A stretch of DNA of 37,281 bases, taken from a virus. Below are positions 7,855 to 15,442 of this stretch, one piece after another; the first letter of the stretch is position 1, and each line of letters opens with the position of its first letter. The position numbers were made by a program, and so were the translations under genes. Location: positions 1 through 37,281 of IMG/VR virus record IMGVR_UViG_3300044615_001326. One strand, 5' to 3'. Under the pieces are notes generated by a model. That model made no database searches. It had not been told where the DNA came from and was given only the letters and a program-made list of their open reading frames with translations.

Positions 7855-8409
7855 ATGATCATCCGCGACCGCATCCGCGAACTGCGACGCGTGCCCGCGT
7901 CCGACCTCGTCCCGAACCCGCGGAACTGGCGAACGCACCCCGAGTCGCAAGCGAACGCGCTCCGCGGGATTCTCTCCGAAGTCGGGTACGCCCAGGCGCT
8001 CCTCGCCCGCGAACTGCCCGACGGTTCTCTGATGCTCATCGACGGGCATCTCCGCGCAGAGACGACACCCGATCAACAGGTGCCGGTGCTGGTGCTGGAT
8101 GTCACCGAGGAGGAAGCCGACAAACTCCTCGCGACGGTTGACCCGCTCGCGGCGCTGGCCGACGCGAACGCGGAAGCCCTCGACGAGTTGCTGCGCCGCA
8201 TCGACACGGGCAGCGATGCCCTGCAAGAGATGTATGCCGACCTCGCGGAGTCCGTGGGCCTGGTGCCGAAGGACACGACCGACGAGCCCGATGCGGTGCC
8301 GAAGACGGGCTGGGAAGTCGTCGTCACGTGCGCGAACGAAGACCAGCAGCGCGAGGTGTTCGAACGTCTTCACGCGGAGGGGCTTGCGTGCCGCGTGCTG
8401 ACATACTGA
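7855..8409 (+). CDS. ParB/Srx-fold protein
   Basis: 184 residues. Residues about 12-75 form a ParB N-terminal-type domain: RVPASDLVPNPRNWRTHP, then ALRGILSEVGY and LIDGHLRAE, the DGH-x-R version of the nucleotide-binding motif seen in phage ParB-like proteins rather than the GERRxR of chromosomal ParB. A helical stretch (TEEEADKLLATVDPLAAL) follows, and a C-terminal strand-helix unit (WEVVVTCANEDQQREVFERL) ends the protein. ParB-fold phage proteins can be CTPases, nucleases or partners of base-modifying enzymes. It overlaps the ABC/GNAT gene by 22 bases, so the two are co-translated and probably act together. Confidence 0.82.
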   Translation: MIIRDRIRELRRVPASDLVPNPRNWRTHPESQANALRGILSEVGYAQALLARELPDGSLMLIDGHLRAETTPDQQVPVLVLDVTEEEADKLLATVDPLAALADANAEALDELLRRIDTGSDALQEMYADLAESVGLVPKDTTDEPDAVPKTGWEVVVTCANEDQQREVFERLHAEGLACRVLTY

Positions 8410-9632
8410 TCGAATCGCCCATCGCGTCGTCGTTCCGCGTCGAGCAAGTGCGGGGAATGTTCGACGTTCCGACGGCGAAGACGGTGCGACACGAATGGCA
8501 CGTAGACCTCCCGATCGAAGAAAAGCCCTGGACGATCGGGCTCATCGTCGGCCCGTCGGGCAGCGGGAAGACGACGATCGGTCGTCGCCTGTTCCCCGAT
8601 GCCCTGTTTCACGAAGGGTACGAATGGCCCGCGAAAGCCGCGATCGTTGACGGGTTCCCGTCCCATCTCGACGGAACGGAGATCACGACCGCGCTCTCCA
8701 GTGTGGGCTTTTCGTCACCGCCTCACTGGCTGAAGCGGTACTCGCATCTCAGCAACGGGCAGCGGTTCCGGTGCGAACTCGCGCGGCTCATGCTGGAAGA
8801 CGCGAAGACGGTCGTCTTCGACGAGTTCACCAGCGTGGTGGATCGCGACGCCGCGAAGGTGTCGTCGGCTGCGATCGCGAAGGCGTTGCGGCGGCGCGGG
8901 AGCCCGCGGCTCGTCGCGTTGTCGTGCCACTTCGACATCATCGAATGGCTCGACCCCGATTGGGTCTACAACGTGGCGACCGGCGAGTTCACGTGGAGGT
9001 GCCTTCAAGGAAGACCGCCCATCGAACTGCGAATCCACGAAGCAACCCCTGCCGCTTGGCGTCTGTTTGGGGGGCACCACTATCTGACCGCCGATATCAA
9101 CCGCGGTTCGCGATGCTTCGTCGCCACCTGGAACGGGAGCCCTGTCGCGTTCACTTCGTATCTGCCCTTCGTTCACGCGAAGGTGCGGGGCAAGAAACGC
9201 GAGCATCGCACCGTCGTGTTGCCCGACTACCAGGGCGTGGGCATCGGCAACGCGGTGAGTGAATGGCTCGGAGGGTATCTGCGATCGCTCGGGTGGGGGT
9301 TTCTCTCGACGACATCGCACCCCGCGATGATTCACCACCGGCATCGGAGCCCGCTCTGGCGAGTGCGCCGCATCGGCCACGCGTCCCCTGTGGGCAAGAC
9401 CGCGACCCGTATTCGCGACTCGTCGTGCAGTCGCGTCACCGCCGGATGCGAGTACGTAGGGCCACCCGTTGAACCGCTTGCGGCATCGTCCAGAGAGAGG
9501 AATATCCGCGGCACGGGATCGGCTTCACCGCCCGCGGCTTCTCCAGCACCCAGCACCACGGGCCGGTCGCGTAGTCTTGCGAAGCGACTTCGCGCAGCGG
9601 CACGACATCGACGAGTTCGACGCACCCGATGA
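8388..9632 (+). CDS. ABC-type ATPase fused to a GNAT acetyltransferase-like domain (COG2401-like)
   Basis: 414 residues from GTG 8388, with GGAGG seven bases upstream. The ATPase half has Walker A GPSGSGKTT (55-63), signature LSNGQ (121-125), Walker B TVVFDEF (141-147) and H-loop SCH (179-181). There are no membrane segments, so it is not a transporter subunit. Residues about 212-360 are GNAT-like, with VAFTSYLP and the acyl-CoA-loop-like LPDYQGVGIGNAVSEWLG (279-296), ending near CEYVG. The last 55 residues are low-complexity and Arg/Ser-rich and lie on top of the convergent ASCH gene; they look like read-through past the normal end. The phage Mu Mom DNA-modification enzyme also has a GNAT fold, so a DNA-directed acyltransfer role is possible, not shown. 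Confidence 0.83.
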   Translation: MPRADILIESPIASSFRVEQVRGMFDVPTAKTVRHEWHVDLPIEEKPWTIGLIVGPSGSGKTTIGRRLFPDALFHEGYEWPAKAAIVDGFPSHLDGTEITTALSSVGFSSPPHWLKRYSHLSNGQRFRCELARLMLEDAKTVVFDEFTSVVDRDAAKVSSAAIAKALRRRGSPRLVALSCHFDIIEWLDPDWVYNVATGEFTWRCLQGRPPIELRIHEATPAAWRLFGGHHYLTADINRGSRCFVATWNGSPVAFTSYLPFVHAKVRGKKREHRTVVLPDYQGVGIGNAVSEWLGGYLRSLGWGFLSTTSHPAMIHHRHRSPLWRVRRIGHASPVGKTATRIRDSSCSRVTAGCEYVGPPVEPLAASSRERNIRGTGSASPPAASPAPSTTGRSRSLAKRLRAAARHRRVRRTR

Positions 9633-9831
9633 TCGCGCTCGATTGCACGGCAAGCGGGATTCGGTGCTGAATCAACGTCGCAAACTCGGGTTCCGTCGGC
9701 GCTCTGTCCCTGCCAGAATGAATCCACAAGCGACCGCGGTAGTTCGTGAACCACGTGCGGTTTTCGATTCGCTTGTCGCCGTGAATGATCGCCCATCCCC
9801 AGTACGGATACACCGTCAAACATCGTTCCAT
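9436..9831 (-). CDS. ASCH-domain protein
   Basis: 131 residues on the minus strand. It has the ASCH pattern: CLTVYPYWGWAIIHGDKRIENR contains the G-x-K-xx-E-x-R signature, then YRGRLWIHSG and a strand-rich middle (AIIGCVELVDVVPL). The fold is PUA-like and binds RNA or DNA; one bacterial member (YqfB) hydrolyses N4-acetylcytidine. Beside a GNAT-fusion gene it is a natural candidate for a reader or eraser of a modified base. ATG 9831 is chosen because GGAG lies six bases upstream. Its 3' end overlaps the ABC/GNAT gene by 197 bases, tail to tail. Confidence 0.82.
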   Translation of the reverse strand: MERCLTVYPYWGWAIIHGDKRIENRTWFTNYRGRLWIHSGRDRAPTEPEFATLIQHRIPLAVQSSAIIGCVELVDVVPLREVASQDYATGPWCWVLEKPRAVKPIPCRGYSSLWTMPQAVQRVALRTRIRR

Positions 9832-10057
9832 GGACATCTCCACTTATCACTGCCCGAAGTGTAGTCGCCTTCTCCACGTGAGCGGCGTAATGGACTTCGG
9901 CCCCGAGCCCGTCGCGATCTTTCAATGCGACGAGTGTCTCCAGACGACGACGATGATGGGCGAGCCCATCGAAGTCGCGTTCACGTTCGCAGTTCGTCCC
10001 GACGGATCGTGGTTCGACCCGAAGGAAGACGACGACGAGGGCGGCGGCGTCCCGTAG
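9830..10057 (+). CDS. Small zinc-ribbon protein
   Basis: 75 residues from ATG 9830. CPKC at about 8-11 and CDEC at about 34-37 form a zinc ribbon; the C terminus is acidic (DPKEDDDEGGG). No clear Shine-Dalgarno is seen. The start codon shares the palindrome CCATGG (9828-9833) with the divergent ASCH start, so the two genes start back to back on opposite strands. The stop lies inside a strong hairpin. The role is unknown; it may be a small DNA- or RNA-binding partner of the cassette. Confidence 0.68.
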   Translation: MDISTYHCPKCSRLLHVSGVMDFGPEPVAIFQCDECLQTTTMMGEPIEVAFTFAVRPDGSWFDPKEDDDEGGGVP

Positions 10058-10085: not shown

Positions 10086-10580
10086 TCACATTCCCGCCGC
10101 GTCGGCTTCGTCGCTCATCGAGGGAGCGATGTCGCCACGCCGCAGCAGGAACGGCCCGCTGGTGTCGAGCCCTGCGAACGATCGCGGAAAAAACCGCTTC
10201 ATGATGTTCGCGGCCCACCGCATCCGGCCCCAGTGACCGGCGAGCCGCCGATCGTAGGGCGTCATGGCACCCGCGTACAGGTAGAGCAACGTCGTTGCCG
10301 ACAGTTTGCCCACCATCACGATCACGGGCTTCTCCTCGCCACCGCTCCAATCGACATACGAATGGAGCGACGTTGACTCGTCGTGCCCGTCCTCGACGCG
10401 GAACCCGACGTTCATCTCCAGCCCTTCATTCAGCAGAGCGACCGTCGCTTCGAACTTCGCGGCGCGTTCCGCGTACTCGCCGCGGAACGGCTTCGACTTC
10501 GCGAAACGATTCGCGGCCACGCAAACCGCCCGCGGGAACTTCGGGCTCTCGACGAGGACATCAGCGACACATTCAAACAT
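10086..10580 (-). CDS. Unknown protein, last gene of the amidoligase operon
   Basis: 164 residues from ATG 10580 (GGAGG five bases upstream); longer in-frame starts lack such a site. The N terminus reads MFECVADVLVESPKFPRAVCVAANRFAKSKPFRGEYAERAAKFE; a middle region has SYVDWSGGEEKPVIVMVGKL, and an RMRWAANIMKRFF helix follows. I recognise no family. It is 61 bases downstream of the ribbon-helix-helix gene and in the same orientation, so it is likely co-transcribed. It may supply or recognise the substrate of the amidoligase pair, but that is a guess. Confidence 0.65.
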   Translation of the reverse strand: MFECVADVLVESPKFPRAVCVAANRFAKSKPFRGEYAERAAKFEATVALLNEGLEMNVGFRVEDGHDESTSLHSYVDWSGGEEKPVIVMVGKLSATTLLYLYAGAMTPYDRRLAGHWGRMRWAANIMKRFFPRSFAGLDTSGPFLLRRGDIAPSMSDEADAAGM

Positions 10581-10641
10581 GGGAACCTCCACGTGATGAA
10601 ACCTTCGATCATTGACCGCCGCTGCACGTTGCTGCGGCTCG

Positions 10642-10848
10642 TCACTCTGCACCCTTCCTGACTCGACGCGCCGCCCGCTTGGCGTCCGCGTCGTTTTCGA
10701 TCCAGTAGTCCAGAGCCCGCCGAATCAACTCGACTCGCTCCAGACCCAGGTCGCGGGCTATCGCGTCGAGAATCTCGACTTGCCCGATCGTGAACCGAAC
10801 ACCGATCACCGCATCGCGGGTCGGCTTTTCTCCCCTTGCGAACGTCAT
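10642..10848 (-). CDS. Ribbon-helix-helix protein
   Basis: 68 residues from ATG 10848, which overlaps the stop of the upstream gene by four bases. DAVIGVRFTIGQVEILDAIA gives the N-terminal strand and first helix, and GLERVELIRRALDYWIE the second helix, the usual CopG/Arc layout. The C terminus is basic (KRAARRVRKG). Such proteins bind DNA as dimers and often repress their own operon; here it may control the leftward promoter at 12530-12559. An antitoxin role is less likely because no toxin-like gene is next to it. Confidence 0.72.
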   Translation of the reverse strand: MTFARGEKPTRDAVIGVRFTIGQVEILDAIARDLGLERVELIRRALDYWIENDADAKRAARRVRKGAE

Positions 10849-11492
10849 GACACCTTCTCCTCGCCCCACTGGCGAACTTCACCGGCACGGAACCGCTGGA
10901 CTTGCCCTGGCAACGCACCAGGCAGCGACCCGAGATAGTAGGACAGACGAGTCTCGCCCACGTGAAGGGGTTGCCCGTTGTCCGCGGCTGCGACGAGGGA
11001 ATCCCGCCAGAGCCCGAGCATCACGATCGGGCTGTTCCCGCGGCAGACCTTCACCGCCTTCGCGCATCTGTCGATGATCGTCCCGCGATTCCGTTCGACG
11101 AGTAGCCCGAGGACTTCGGAGTCGCAGTCGGTGACAGTGTGAAGCCCGTGCCGCTCCGCGATGTCGTCGTGACGATGGATCACCCCGTTGTGGACGATCC
11201 ATCCGCCGTCACTGGGGTGCGGGTGGTTGTTCAGATTGTTCGACGGGCTCCCGTGAGTGGCGTATCGGCAGTGCCCGATGAGCATCACCGCATCCTGCGC
11301 CATCGCGAGCAGCGGGCGAGCGTCAACGATCCGGCCCGTCTGCTTGAACATGCGGAGCCGCCCGTCTTTCGTCACCCATGCCATGCCCCACGCGTGCGGG
11401 CCGCGGCTCATCGTCACCTCCGCGACTTCGGACAGAATCTCAAGATCGACCGTGTTGTCCTTCTTCGCAACGAACCCGAAAACGCCGCACAT
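10845..11492 (-). CDS. Class II glutamine amidotransferase (Ntn hydrolase)
   Basis: 215 residues. ATG 11492 is chosen because it puts Cys at position 2 (MCGVFGFVAKKD), the N-terminal nucleophile after Met removal, and because AGGAG lies seven bases before it. Other family residues: GHCRYATHGSPSNN (73-86, substrate Arg), VHNGV (oxyanion Asn102/Gly103) and CDSEVL (Asp124). It should release ammonia, or cut a gamma-glutamyl amide, from glutamine or a similar substrate. Class II GATases of this kind are known neighbours of Amidoligase_2 genes, as here. The protein is short and lacks a synthetase domain, so it must work with a partner. Confidence 0.88.
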   Translation of the reverse strand: MCGVFGFVAKKDNTVDLEILSEVAEVTMSRGPHAWGMAWVTKDGRLRMFKQTGRIVDARPLLAMAQDAVMLIGHCRYATHGSPSNNLNNHPHPSDGGWIVHNGVIHRHDDIAERHGLHTVTDCDSEVLGLLVERNRGTIIDRCAKAVKVCRGNSPIVMLGLWRDSLVAAADNGQPLHVGETRLSYYLGSLPGALPGQVQRFRAGEVRQWGEEKVS

Positions 11493-11546
11493 AGTTCCGC
11501 TCCTGTTGAAAGTGAAAAGCCTCGTCAGGCACCGCCTCACGGTGCG

Positions 11547-11609
11547 ACGATCGGGCGGGCTTGCGGGACATTACTGCGGCGGTGCCGCAACCCTGTCCCG
11601 CCCGATCGT
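11547..11609 (-). other. Nested inverted repeats between amidoligase and amidotransferase genes
   Basis: The outer arms, 11547-11559 and 11597-11609, are 13 bases and perfectly complementary. Inside, TGCGGC (11575-11580) pairs with GCCGCA (11584-11589), and TTGCGG (11561-11566) could pair instead with CCGCAA (11585-11590). This permits two alternative folds in the mRNA between the two cistrons, a layout that could tune their relative expression. Confidence 0.55.
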
Positions 11610-11626
11610 TTCGGCTTGTCGGCCCG

Positions 11627-12472
11627 CTACCCCTCGTCGCGGGCATCGTACTTGCGGGCGAGCCGCATCAACTCGCGCTTCACGGACTTGAGCGTCGGGC
11701 CACCCTCGACGAACAGGTTCCCGTGAACGTGCGACTCGCGGCCCTTGATCCATCCGATCCCGTAAAACAGGCGGCAGAGCGCCGTCTGGCCCTCACCCTT
11801 GCGAGCGATCGGGCTGGAGTCCTTCACCGGCTTCGCGGTGAACTTCGCAGTCCGGCCCATGCGGAGCGTCTTCTCGACGAGGGCCACGCAGGTCAACACG
11901 TGGCCCACAATCTTGTCCGCGTTCAGAGTCGCGCCGAAAGCCCGAAACTCCACGGTCGGCTTGTCGGTGATCGTGTTGAGAACCTTGTACCGCGTGTCGC
12001 GGCGGCGGGCCATCGCGTTTTCCAGCGACCCGTGCCGCTGGATCGACTCGCACCACCGGCCATTCTCGCGGGTGCGGGTTCCCGTCTGGGCGTAGATAGC
12101 CTTTTCGAAGTTTGCGACGACCGCGACAAGCCGACGGAGCGTAGCATCGTCGGTCTTGTCGAAGCCCACGTGAACGTGGAGCCCGCACGAACTGTTGACC
12201 TTGCCACCCTTCTCGACGATGAGCCGAACGGCGTCAAGCAGTTTGCGGATTCCTTCGCGGCCCTTCAGCACCGGCGACACAAACTCGCAAGCCTGAAAGC
12301 CCGCTTCGGGCCGGATCGACGGATCGGCGTCGGCCTTCCAGCCGCGGGGGAGCCACTCGACCTGAGCGCCGCGGCCATGGCCGCCGACGCGGGCGACAGC
12401 ACCGTAGGGCAGGCTGGTTTCAATCTCGACGCCGAAGGTCATTTCTTCAACATTCACGGTCGTGGCGGGCAT
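11627..12472 (-). CDS. Putative amidoligase (Amidoligase_2 family)
   Basis: 281 residues, first gene of the leftward operon. The family pattern is clear: FGVEIET near the start (Glu16 and Glu18, metal/ATP ligands), W-K-ADADPSI followed by CEFVSPVLKG, then VNSSCGLHVHVGF (His99 and His101), and late TVEFRAFGATLN. These are the glutamine-synthetase-like active-site elements. The family is predicted to make ATP-dependent amide bonds between a carboxylate and an amine; natural substrates are unknown for phage members. The next gene can supply ammonia or trim the product. AAGGA lies upstream of ATG 12472, and a near-consensus promoter at 12530-12559. Confidence 0.87.
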   Translation of the reverse strand: MPATTVNVEEMTFGVEIETSLPYGAVARVGGHGRGAQVEWLPRGWKADADPSIRPEAGFQACEFVSPVLKGREGIRKLLDAVRLIVEKGGKVNSSCGLHVHVGFDKTDDATLRRLVAVVANFEKAIYAQTGTRTRENGRWCESIQRHGSLENAMARRRDTRYKVLNTITDKPTVEFRAFGATLNADKIVGHVLTCVALVEKTLRMGRTAKFTAKPVKDSSPIARKGEGQTALCRLFYGIGWIKGRESHVHGNLFVEGGPTLKSVKRELMRLARKYDARDEG

Positions 12473-13386: not shown

Positions 13387-13872
13387 ATGGCTCGCCCTGG
13401 CCCGCGGAAGCAACCGACGAATCTCCGCATCCTTCGTGGCAACCCCGCGAAGCGACCGCTCCCGTCAAACGAACCGAAGCCCGAGTCCGATCAACTCGAC
13501 CCGCCCGAGTGGGTCACGGGCGATGCTCTTGTGAAGTACGAGGAGGTCGCGAGCCGCCTACTGAAGATGGGCATCCTGACGAACGTGGACGTTGACGCCC
13601 TCGCGCGGTACGCGGTCACGTTCGTCGAGTGGAAAAAGCATCTGGCGATATGCCAGCGCGGCGGCGACGTTCTGGTGGTCAAGGACGAGGCGGGCAAACT
13701 GCGGTACGCCAGCGTCGCGCCATCGGCCACGCTGGTCGCGAAGCACGGGCAGACGCTGCTGCGGCTCGCGCAGGAGTTCGGCATGACGCCGTCGGCCCGC
13801 ACCGCTCTTGCGACGAAGGGGGACACCAAGCCGAATGACCCGCTCGCGGCGTGGCTCCAGAAAAACGCCTGA
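13387..13872 (+). CDS. terS: Terminase small subunit, P27 family
   Basis: 161 residues. The start (MARPGPRKQPTNLRILRGNPAKRPLP) is the usual P27-family opening, followed by PPEW, KYEEVASRLLKMGILTNVDVDALARYAVTFVEWKKHL, and a C-terminal GMTPSARTAL. P27 proteins form the DNA-recognition ring of HK97-type packaging motors. ATG 13387 has GGAG upstream; the GTG at 13384 is adjacent. The large-subunit gene starts inside its last 38 bases, so the two are coupled. Confidence 0.88.
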   Translation: MARPGPRKQPTNLRILRGNPAKRPLPSNEPKPESDQLDPPEWVTGDALVKYEEVASRLLKMGILTNVDVDALARYAVTFVEWKKHLAICQRGGDVLVVKDEAGKLRYASVAPSATLVAKHGQTLLRLAQEFGMTPSARTALATKGDTKPNDPLAAWLQKNA

Positions 13873-15442
13873 CCGCCCCGAAGCGGTTGCGGGCTTCACG
13901 TTCGATCCAGCGCGGGCCGCGCGAGTGATCGACTTCATCGAAACCTTCTGCGTGATGTCGAAGGGACGGCAGTGGGCTGGAAAGCCCATGCAACTCATGG
14001 AGTGGCAGAAGGAAGACATTCTCGCGCCGCTGTTCGGATGGGTGGACGACAAGGGGCACCGTCGATACCGCACCGCTGCGATCTTCACTCCCAAAAAGCA
14101 AGGGAAGTCAACGCTCCTCGCAGCGCTCGCGCTCTACTTCCTGGTGGCAGACGGGGAGCCAGGGTGCGAGGTGTGGGGCTGCGCGACCGACCGGCAATCC
14201 GCGGGCATCATCTACCGCGAAGCCGCGGCCATGGTTCGATCATCGCCCGCTCTGTCGCAGGCGATCGAGATCATCGACTCGCGAAACACGCTGGTGCATC
14301 GCGCGAGCAACTCGCGGTATTCGGTGCTGTCCAGCGACGCGCCGCGGGCCGAGGGCGTCAACGCTCACGCGGTGCTTGCGGACGAGATTCATGCGATGCG
14401 TGACCGCCGTTTGCTCGACGCACTCCGCTACGCGGGCTCTGCGCGAACCCAGCCGATGCTCATCGGCATCTCGACCGCGGGCTACGAACGCGGGAAGTCG
14501 GTGGCGTGGGAGTGGTGGCAAGACGCGGAGAGGGTGACCGCCGACCCCGCATCGAACCCGACATTCTTCGGGAAAATCTACGCGGCTCCCGAGCAACCGA
14601 ACGTGTCGGACTACTTCACGCCGAAACTCTGGAAGATCGCCAACCCGAGCCTGGGCGTGACCGTGTCGGAGAAGTCCTTCGCAGCCGATGCGATGGAGGC
14701 CCGCACGAACCCCGCGAAAACGTCCGCGTGGTTGCGGTATCGGATGAATGTCTGGCAGTCCGCAGACACCCGCTATTTCACTCCCGAGTCCTGGGCTTCC
14801 TGCGGTGGCGACCCCGTTGAACCGCTGGAGGGACGCGAGTGCTACGCGGGCATGGACTTGGCTTCGACGCGTGACCTGACGAGCGTGGTGTTCTGCTTCC
14901 CCGACGGCCAGGGCGGCTACGACCTCGACCCCTACTTTTTCATCCCGCGGGACACCGCCGCGGAGCGATCGCAGAAGGATCGCGTCCCGTATCTGGAGTG
15001 GATTCGTGATGGGCTCATCATCGCGACAGACGGGAATCGGTGCGACTACGGGGTGGTCGAGCAGTTCGTGATCGAATACGCGGAGCGCCATCGGCTGGTG
15101 AAACTCGCGGGCGACCGATGGAACGCGGCATCGACGTTCACCAAACTCCAGCAGGCAGGCATCGCGGTCGAGGGGTTTTCGCAGGCGATTGGGTCGATGT
15201 CGGCCCCGACGAAACTCCTCGACACGCTGATCGCCGCGAAGAAAATCCGCCACCGCAACCACCCCGTCCTGTCGTGGTGCGCGTCGAACGTCGCGGTGAG
15301 AACCGACCCCAACGGGAACATCGCCCCCTGCAAGGTGCGAAGCACCGAGCGGATCGACGGGGTGGTGGCCGCGATCATGTCCCTGGGGCTCGCGTCCACC
15401 GCCGCCACCCCCGAATCGTCCTGGGAAATAGTCGAACTGTGA
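13835..15442 (+). CDS. terL: Terminase large subunit
   Basis: 535 residues from ATG 13835. ATPase domain: Walker A TPKKQGKST (85-93), Walker B AVLADEIH (179-186) with Asp183/Glu184, and the coupling-type motif GISTAGYE (211-218). Nuclease domain: GMDLASTRDLT with Asp341, and further acidic residues near the C terminus. It packages DNA into the prohead and cuts it. Sequence style is that of the Terminase_1/HK97 group, which usually cuts at cos. Its stop overlaps the start of the promoter for the portal gene. Confidence 0.95.
   Translation: MTRSRRGSRKTPDRPEAVAGFTFDPARAARVIDFIETFCVMSKGRQWAGKPMQLMEWQKEDILAPLFGWVDDKGHRRYRTAAIFTPKKQGKSTLLAALALYFLVADGEPGCEVWGCATDRQSAGIIYREAAAMVRSSPALSQAIEIIDSRNTLVHRASNSRYSVLSSDAPRAEGVNAHAVLADEIHAMRDRRLLDALRYAGSARTQPMLIGISTAGYERGKSVAWEWWQDAERVTADPASNPTFFGKIYAAPEQPNVSDYFTPKLWKIANPSLGVTVSEKSFAADAMEARTNPAKTSAWLRYRMNVWQSADTRYFTPESWASCGGDPVEPLEGRECYAGMDLASTRDLTSVVFCFPDGQGGYDLDPYFFIPRDTAAERSQKDRVPYLEWIRDGLIIATDGNRCDYGVVEQFVIEYAERHRLVKLAGDRWNAASTFTKLQQAGIAVEGFSQAIGSMSAPTKLLDTLIAAKKIRHRNHPVLSWCASNVAVRTDPNGNIAPCKVRSTERIDGVVAAIMSLGLASTAATPESSWEIVEL

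Follow-up and report, generated by a model that had tools for sequence, protein, structure and literature searches.

A phage ParB-like protein and its ABC-ATPase/GNAT partner form a predicted DNA-modification module with an enzyme-specific tail

What use does a virus have for a ParB-like protein, an ABC-type ATPase joined to a GNAT acyltransferase and an ASCH-domain protein when their three genes lie within about 2 kb of one another? The question is raised by the IMG/VR record IMGVR_UViG_3300044615_001326, a stretch of 37,281 nucleotides analysed here at its full length and referred to below as the window, in which the three occupy positions 7855-9831. Reading the letters alone, the original prediction saw in them the writer, the motor or specificity factor and the reader or eraser of a new system of nucleic-acid acylation. 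The coordinates, the Pfam and phrog matches and the fold models of the ParB and GNAT parts bear out the three genes themselves, which we judge to be genuine and no chance open reading frames (Table 1). Since the record also encodes terminase, portal, major head and tape-measure genes, its source is a tailed phage. The most likely answer, and one that we offer as a prediction, is that the ParB protein and the ABC-GNAT protein together attach a chemical group to the DNA of the virus.

Table 1. Positions of the features discussed in the text within the 37,281-nucleotide window
Feature	Position	Strand	Basis or remark
ParB/Srx-like adaptor, 184 aa (head, linker and tail)	7855-8409	+	phrog_620, E 1e-12; ParB-fold model
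ParB head, about residues 1-149	7855-8301	+	model match; GHxR motif IDGHLR at 8038
Partner-specific C-terminal tail GWEVVVTCANEDQQREVFERLHAEGLACRVLTY; proposed ABC-GNAT docking element	8308-8406	+	family tail consensus
Shine-Dalgarno-like GGAGGGG, 5 nt before GTG 8388	8376-8382	+	sequence
ABC-ATPase/GNAT fusion, 414 aa from GTG 8388	8388-9632	+	phrog_11143, E 4e-100; family alignments
ABC ATPase domain	8388-8987	+	motifs invariant or nearly so across family
Walker A	8550-8573	+	
Signature LSNGQ	8748-8762	+	
Walker B	8811-8828	+	
D-loop	8835-8846	+	
H-loop	8922-8936	+	
GNAT acyltransferase domain	8988-9482	+	HHYL motif 9075-9086; acyl-CoA loop QGVGIG 9231-9248
ABC-GNAT C-terminal extension, antisense to ASCH	9483-9632	+	homology in closest relatives only
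ASCH-domain protein, 135 aa, convergent; optional companion	9436-9843	-	Pfam ASCH 2e-5; phrog_3193 2e-30
Minus-strand gene group	10086-12472	-	possible accessory chemistry
Gene without assigned function	10086-10652	-	
RHH gene	10642-10869	-	
Class-II glutamine amidotransferase	10845-11540	-	
Amidoligase	11627-12472	-	
Terminase large subunit	13808-15442	+	phrog_9, E 4e-153; ParB/ABC-GNAT module upstream of packaging genes

The ABC-GNAT protein most likely begins at GTG 8388 rather than at 8328, because a Shine-Dalgarno-like element lies just upstream, the ParB gene overlaps this start by 22 nt and the family alignment begins there. Its match to phrog_11143 spans the whole length, and Pfam recognises both of its parts (ABC_tran, 6e-8; Acetyltransf_1, 2e-4). 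The set of ABC motifs (Walker A, signature, Walker B, D- and H-loops) is complete and conserved, and the AF2 model of the GNAT domain (pLDDT 91) has PDB entry 1y9k as its top match (Z 14.1 over 136 residues), with several CoA-bound GNATs among its structural matches. The acyl-CoA site, the loss of which the original prediction had named as a point that would tell against it, is intact both in the model and in the loop alignment, where QGVGIG fits the motif Q/RxxGxG/A, with at least 90% conservation of the motif residues Q, G and G among 107 relatives. Homology across the family stops near residue 360; the last 50 or so codons are antisense to the ASCH gene and are common to the closest relatives only, the last 197 nt of the frame being overlapped by ASCH on the opposite strand. 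Sequence matches to transporter ATPases, and the annotation of several records in the same sense, would make of this protein the ATPase of a transporter with a stray acetyltransferase attached. Such a reading is scarcely credible, as a simple hydropathy scan of the gene and of the genes around it in the window reaches at most 1.57 (Kyte-Doolittle) and shows no hydrophobic stretch, no permease appears among the recognised recurrent neighbours of ABC-GNAT loci, and in the majority of loci ABC and GNAT are fused in one gene.

Enzymes of the Mom family act on DNA by placing a group on adenine N6, and the original prediction had invoked Mu Mom as a GNAT-fold precedent for the enzyme in the window. 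As a statement of homology by sequence this is not supported (hhalign probability 2%, P 0.02): a divergent Mom is rejected by profile comparison, in which only a short HHY-containing stretch aligns with Mom (phrog_1384). No solved Mom structure was among the best 1000 Foldseek matches in the fold comparison.

The ParB protein can be divided into a head and a tail. Its AF2 model (pLDDT 94) has the fold of the ParB/sulfiredoxin N-domain, with Z 13.8 to 6sdk and 7bnr over residues 5-143, and of its 184 residues those beyond about 143 lie outside the structural match. The known ParB head fold is NTP-binding, and the arginine of the nucleotide pocket (GxxR) is present here as in 151 of about 184 heads, with G-H-x-R found in the majority of heads from ABC-GNAT and Mom loci alike. 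A chromosome-partition ParB would have a ParA partner and a parS-binding HTH domain; in a general list of the recurrent neighbours of ABC-GNAT loci we noticed no ParA. Our set of ABC-GNAT loci numbers 208 and draws on phages, viral contigs and genomes. Where 700 bases or more of upstream sequence were available (181 loci), ParB is present in 155, and in 69 of 74 non-redundant ones (near copies removed at 60% identity); the sample is one of related viral contigs, to which each scan contributes at most 80 loci and favours relatives of the query, and neighbouring genes were called mechanically. The survey does away with the fixed trio that had been envisaged: ParB is near-obligate, but no more than 12 of 89 non-redundant loci have an ASCH gene in the first 1 kb downstream.

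Most of these ParB genes overlap the start of ABC-GNAT, and although the family is diverse (mean column identity of 20% over the whole alignment of ABC-locus ParB proteins) a tail of about 33 residues, with the consensus f.viVeC.dE.eQ..LlerL..EGlkCRaL, is conserved despite the diverged heads. One locus (L191) carries a natural ParB-ABC-GNAT fusion, and two Mu-like phages encode the tail separately, as a gene of 42-49 aa in front of ABC-GNAT (L010, and more weakly L007). These stand-alone genes (L007 3873-4001 and L010 3852-4001) match the ParB tail in phrog_28816, the one in the Porphyromonas phage is annotated as an 'acr candidate', and their place before ABC-GNAT is that of Com before Mom in phage Mu. 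ParB and tail are both absent from a group of phages in which ABC and GNAT are separate genes and from a few large phages, and the head is therefore not strictly required. In L027-L049, phage contigs with separate ABC and GNAT genes and no ParB, other genes often lie between the two; 16 loci have a RecA/UvsX-like gene (cluster 17) upstream.

The wider company kept by the head was surveyed with two ParB heads, stripped of their tails, as queries and with at most 80 loci from each scan, so that all class counts are lower bounds. Fusions to N6/N4-methyltransferases were the most frequent, with at least 77, followed by Mom (at least 19), TET/JBP (at least 14), the TET-associated glycosyltransferase TAGT (at least 12), C5-methyltransferases (at least 10), PAPS-reductase-like proteins (at least 7), and TGT/DpdA-like and ABC-GNAT proteins (at least 4 each). 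The tail tells these partners apart better than the head does: the nearest tail predicted the partner rightly in 258 of 260 cases and the nearest head in 213 of 260, in trials that are not independent, the contigs being related. When the comparison is restricted to heads at most 50% identical, the tail is right for ABC-GNAT in 144 of 144, for Mom in 72 of 74 and for C5-methyltransferases in 11 of 11 cases, and for TAGT, TET, TGT and PAPS together in 0 of 31, classes sampled by a few near relatives only, among which there may just be no more distant member to compare with. Thirteen loci were at first unassigned, and 11 of them were then found to have a TET or C5-methyltransferase gene, as their tails implied; in the other two the following gene matches none of the modification enzymes tested. 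The ParB heads of these two (L415 1171-1797 and L417 2459-3088) have a distinct tail type, LIGIPVVRYGEIAQLLEQIGKLEGVTLLTVANDAQYEN, which may be the mark of a new enzyme. A PAPS-reductase-like gene with DUF3440 likewise follows a ParB head that has a distinct tail (L457 734-1903, L463, L466, L467, L472, L474 and L475), and by analogy a sulfur- or ATP-dependent DNA modification is possible there.

Head, tail and enzyme can also be compared in loci in which Mom takes the place of ABC-GNAT. The phages Appa and Shade have a ParB gene before Mom, with heads 57% identical to those of ABC-GNAT loci, and among the matches listed a ParB of the same family lies directly upstream in 79 of 82 Mom-family loci, in a set seeded by a single ParB-linked Mom protein and so biased towards ParB-linked Mom. 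All 79 tails carry CxxC and none is of the ABC type, again among the matches listed. In Mu itself, the gene upstream of Mom is Com and not ParB. Between ABC-GNAT and Mom loci the heads are up to 84% identical, and on a tree built from 119 heads the partner has to change 19 times, at least 8 of these changes being forced by starred branches. When L060 and L305 are compared as DNA, identity is 84% over the ParB head and 79% over the terminase region that follows, and the tail and enzyme between the two are unrelated; L060 with L307 and L074 with L275 repeat the pattern. Over the three contig pairs head and terminase region are 77-84% identical, with the ABC-type tail and ABC-GNAT in one member and a zinc tail and Mom in the other. 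Judged from these alignments, tail plus enzyme is a cassette that is swapped at one genomic place in related viral contigs.

Could the pairing be no more than a hot spot beside the terminase, with ParB serving partition or acting as a nuclease and ABC-GNAT unrelated to it? Several different cassettes do lie between head and terminase, and elsewhere ParB proteins are partition factors or nucleases (PMC5512222). We hold this to be very unlikely, for the tail tracks the enzyme and not the head or the place, the stop of ParB overlaps the start of ABC-GNAT, the two are fused in nature in one locus, and the two Mu-like phages have retained the tail as a gene by itself in front of ABC-GNAT. Instead, ABC-GNAT appears to be a plug-in of a ParB-adaptor module, because its heads are common to Mom and other DNA enzymes and the tail tracks the partner. 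That the ParB and ABC-GNAT proteins form a phage DNA-modification module, with ParB as the adaptor and its tail fitting ABC-GNAT, we regard as likely. On balance we also lean towards a broader reading, in which one interchangeable ParB head serves many DNA-modifying enzymes (N6/N4- and C5-methylases, Mom, ABC-GNAT, TET/JBP, TAGT, TGT/DpdA-like and PAPS-reductase-like proteins), a short enzyme-specific tail is the plug, cassettes of tail and enzyme are exchanged beside the terminase, and ABC-GNAT is one such plug. The match between tail and partner is compatible both with docking and with the mere co-inheritance of tail and enzyme.

In the module as we picture it, the ParB/Srx head would be the common part, used with many DNA-modifying enzymes, and would probably bring the enzyme to the DNA, the tail probably docking onto the ABC-GNAT protein. 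The ABC ATPase would spend ATP to engage, open or move along the DNA, and before packaging the GNAT domain would transfer the acyl group of acyl-CoA onto the amino group of a base, so that acylated virion DNA would be protected from restriction. The part of the original prediction that made ParB, ABC and GNAT a unit of nucleic-acid modification is thereby upheld by the intact acyl-CoA loop and by the swaps with Mom and other DNA-modifying enzymes, and it is from these swaps that we take DNA to be the target.

GNATs act mostly on proteins or small amines, and the best structural matches of this GNAT domain are protein and small-molecule N-acetyltransferases. A module that acylates a protein, such as the host RNA polymerase or a restriction enzyme, instead of DNA has therefore to be considered, all the more as a phage GNAT modifying host RNA polymerase is known in Rac (PMC7824862). 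Genomic association alone fits a DNA base or a DNA-bound protein as the acceptor alike. We nevertheless think a protein target unlikely, given that Mom replaces ABC-GNAT behind the same ParB head and at the same genomic place, and that this head is common to DNA methylases, TET, TAGT and TGT/DpdA-like genes.

A close relative of the predicted module has been put forward before. Iyer et al. in 2013 predicted an ABC-ATPase with a GNAT as a modifier of DNA bases by acylation, as restated in PMC7824862 for phage pT24, and what had been suggested for the window as a new system was in this respect partly anticipated. The pT24 proteins belong to the same family and have the same pair of domains (pT24, H40 and L013 in our sets, matches the ABC-GNAT of the window by tblastn at E 3e-45, and both of its genes match the family HMM); pT24 has separate ABC and GNAT genes with no ParB detected, whereas the window has the fusion and a ParB with a specific tail. 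The idea of DNA acylation by ABC and GNAT being already published, what is new here is the ParB context, that is the code between tail and partner and the exchange of Mom and ABC-GNAT cassettes. Neither was found in a literature search, the reach of which did not extend to Iyer et al. 2013, where ParB may be mentioned, and a search for COG2401 with phage and acetyltransferase gave no paper. The earlier prediction for ABC-GNAT is now tied to concrete cultured phages with DNA that can be analysed, among them the Gordonia phages Shatter and Axumite, the Rhodococcus phage Jace, the Arthrobacter phage EastWest and the Lactococcus phage P335.

Other systems share one part or another. The ParB-Mom operons of Appa, Shade and the Mu Mom family have the same family of ParB head (pairs 57-84% identical), and the overlap with the enzyme gene and the genomic slot are as in their ABC-GNAT sister phages; Mom differs in being without an ABC domain, in its GNAT sequence, unrelated by profile comparison, and in the zinc-knuckle tail of its ParB. 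Phage fusions of ParB with DNA methylases (phrog_498) have the same head, which the head of the window matches at E 8e-12, with the enzyme fused to it, whereas the window has a separate enzyme gene and a tail of the docking type. In the Dpd system the ParB-like ATPase DpdB works with the TGT DpdA in the insertion of deazaguanine into DNA (PMC12839542), a likeness in the pairing of a ParB-like protein with a base-modifying enzyme that is drawn from description and not from sequence, and with a different chemistry. ParBc genes also adjoin the proven phage DNA carboxymethyltransferase CmoX, where their precise function is stated as unknown (PMC12783734). The match of tail and enzyme offers a testable answer on the role of ParB, which would be an adaptor common to several enzymes with a tail that selects among them, and it makes the tail type a marker for finding DNA-modifying enzymes, in which new tails should mark new enzymes.

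The third gene had been cast as a possible eraser, on the model of N4-acetylcytidine hydrolases. Its ASCH domain is above the Pfam cutoff (PF04266), its start may be any of the methionine codons at 9843, 9837 and 9831, and its closest solved structure is human ASC-1 (E 5e-13) and not YqfB. In YqfB the nucleophile is Thr24, within the catalytic motif Lys-x-x-Thr-x-Arg (PMC6972931). The window protein has K-R-I-E-N-R, with Glu at the place of that Thr, as in 27 of the 30 relatives in which the motif was found by pattern, and on this residue the ac4C eraser is rejected as unsupported. ASCH genes are denser within 1 kb downstream of ABC-GNAT (0.143 per kb) than at 1-5 kb (0.026 per kb), with none upstream, and they are common in other phages, including many where ABC-GNAT was not found; the ASCH protein is an optional companion, and more likely a binder than an eraser. 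The domain has a PUA-like fold that is often RNA-binding (PMC7641849), and both TGT-like and GNAT enzymes are able to act on tRNA, from which one might argue that the GNAT and the PUA-like ASCH modify RNA or tRNA and lie near packaging genes by accident. This too is highly improbable, as DNA methylases, TET/JBP and Mom all figure among the interchangeable partners, and as ASCH is optional in ABC-GNAT loci. A small Cys-rich, zinc-ribbon-like protein (9830-10057, plus strand) divergently overlaps the start of the ASCH gene and is kept in six related loci.

Genes downstream of ABC-GNAT are often terminase and portal genes, and some others may bear on the chemistry of the DNA modification that we predict. 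The amidotransferase and amidoligase genes of the window lie on the minus strand between ABC-GNAT and terminase. Five other loci (L015, L016, L017, L050 and L131) have a class-II glutamine amidotransferase close to ABC-GNAT and six (the same five and L086) an amidoligase, and the pair could be a source of amide chemistry. In some clades other genes come directly after ABC-GNAT: a formyltransferase-like gene (phrog_9240) occurs there in L007 (5128-5601), L010 (5110-5727) and L011 (1805-2452), and is a possible clue to the transferred group; the hosts of these phages are Porphyromonas, Pseudomonas and Gordonia. Six further loci have an aspartate-decarboxylase (PanD)-like gene directly downstream (L002 5107-5532, L078, L102, L115, L148 and L149), and the formyltransferase-like and decarboxylase-like neighbours are possible sources of acyl chemistry.
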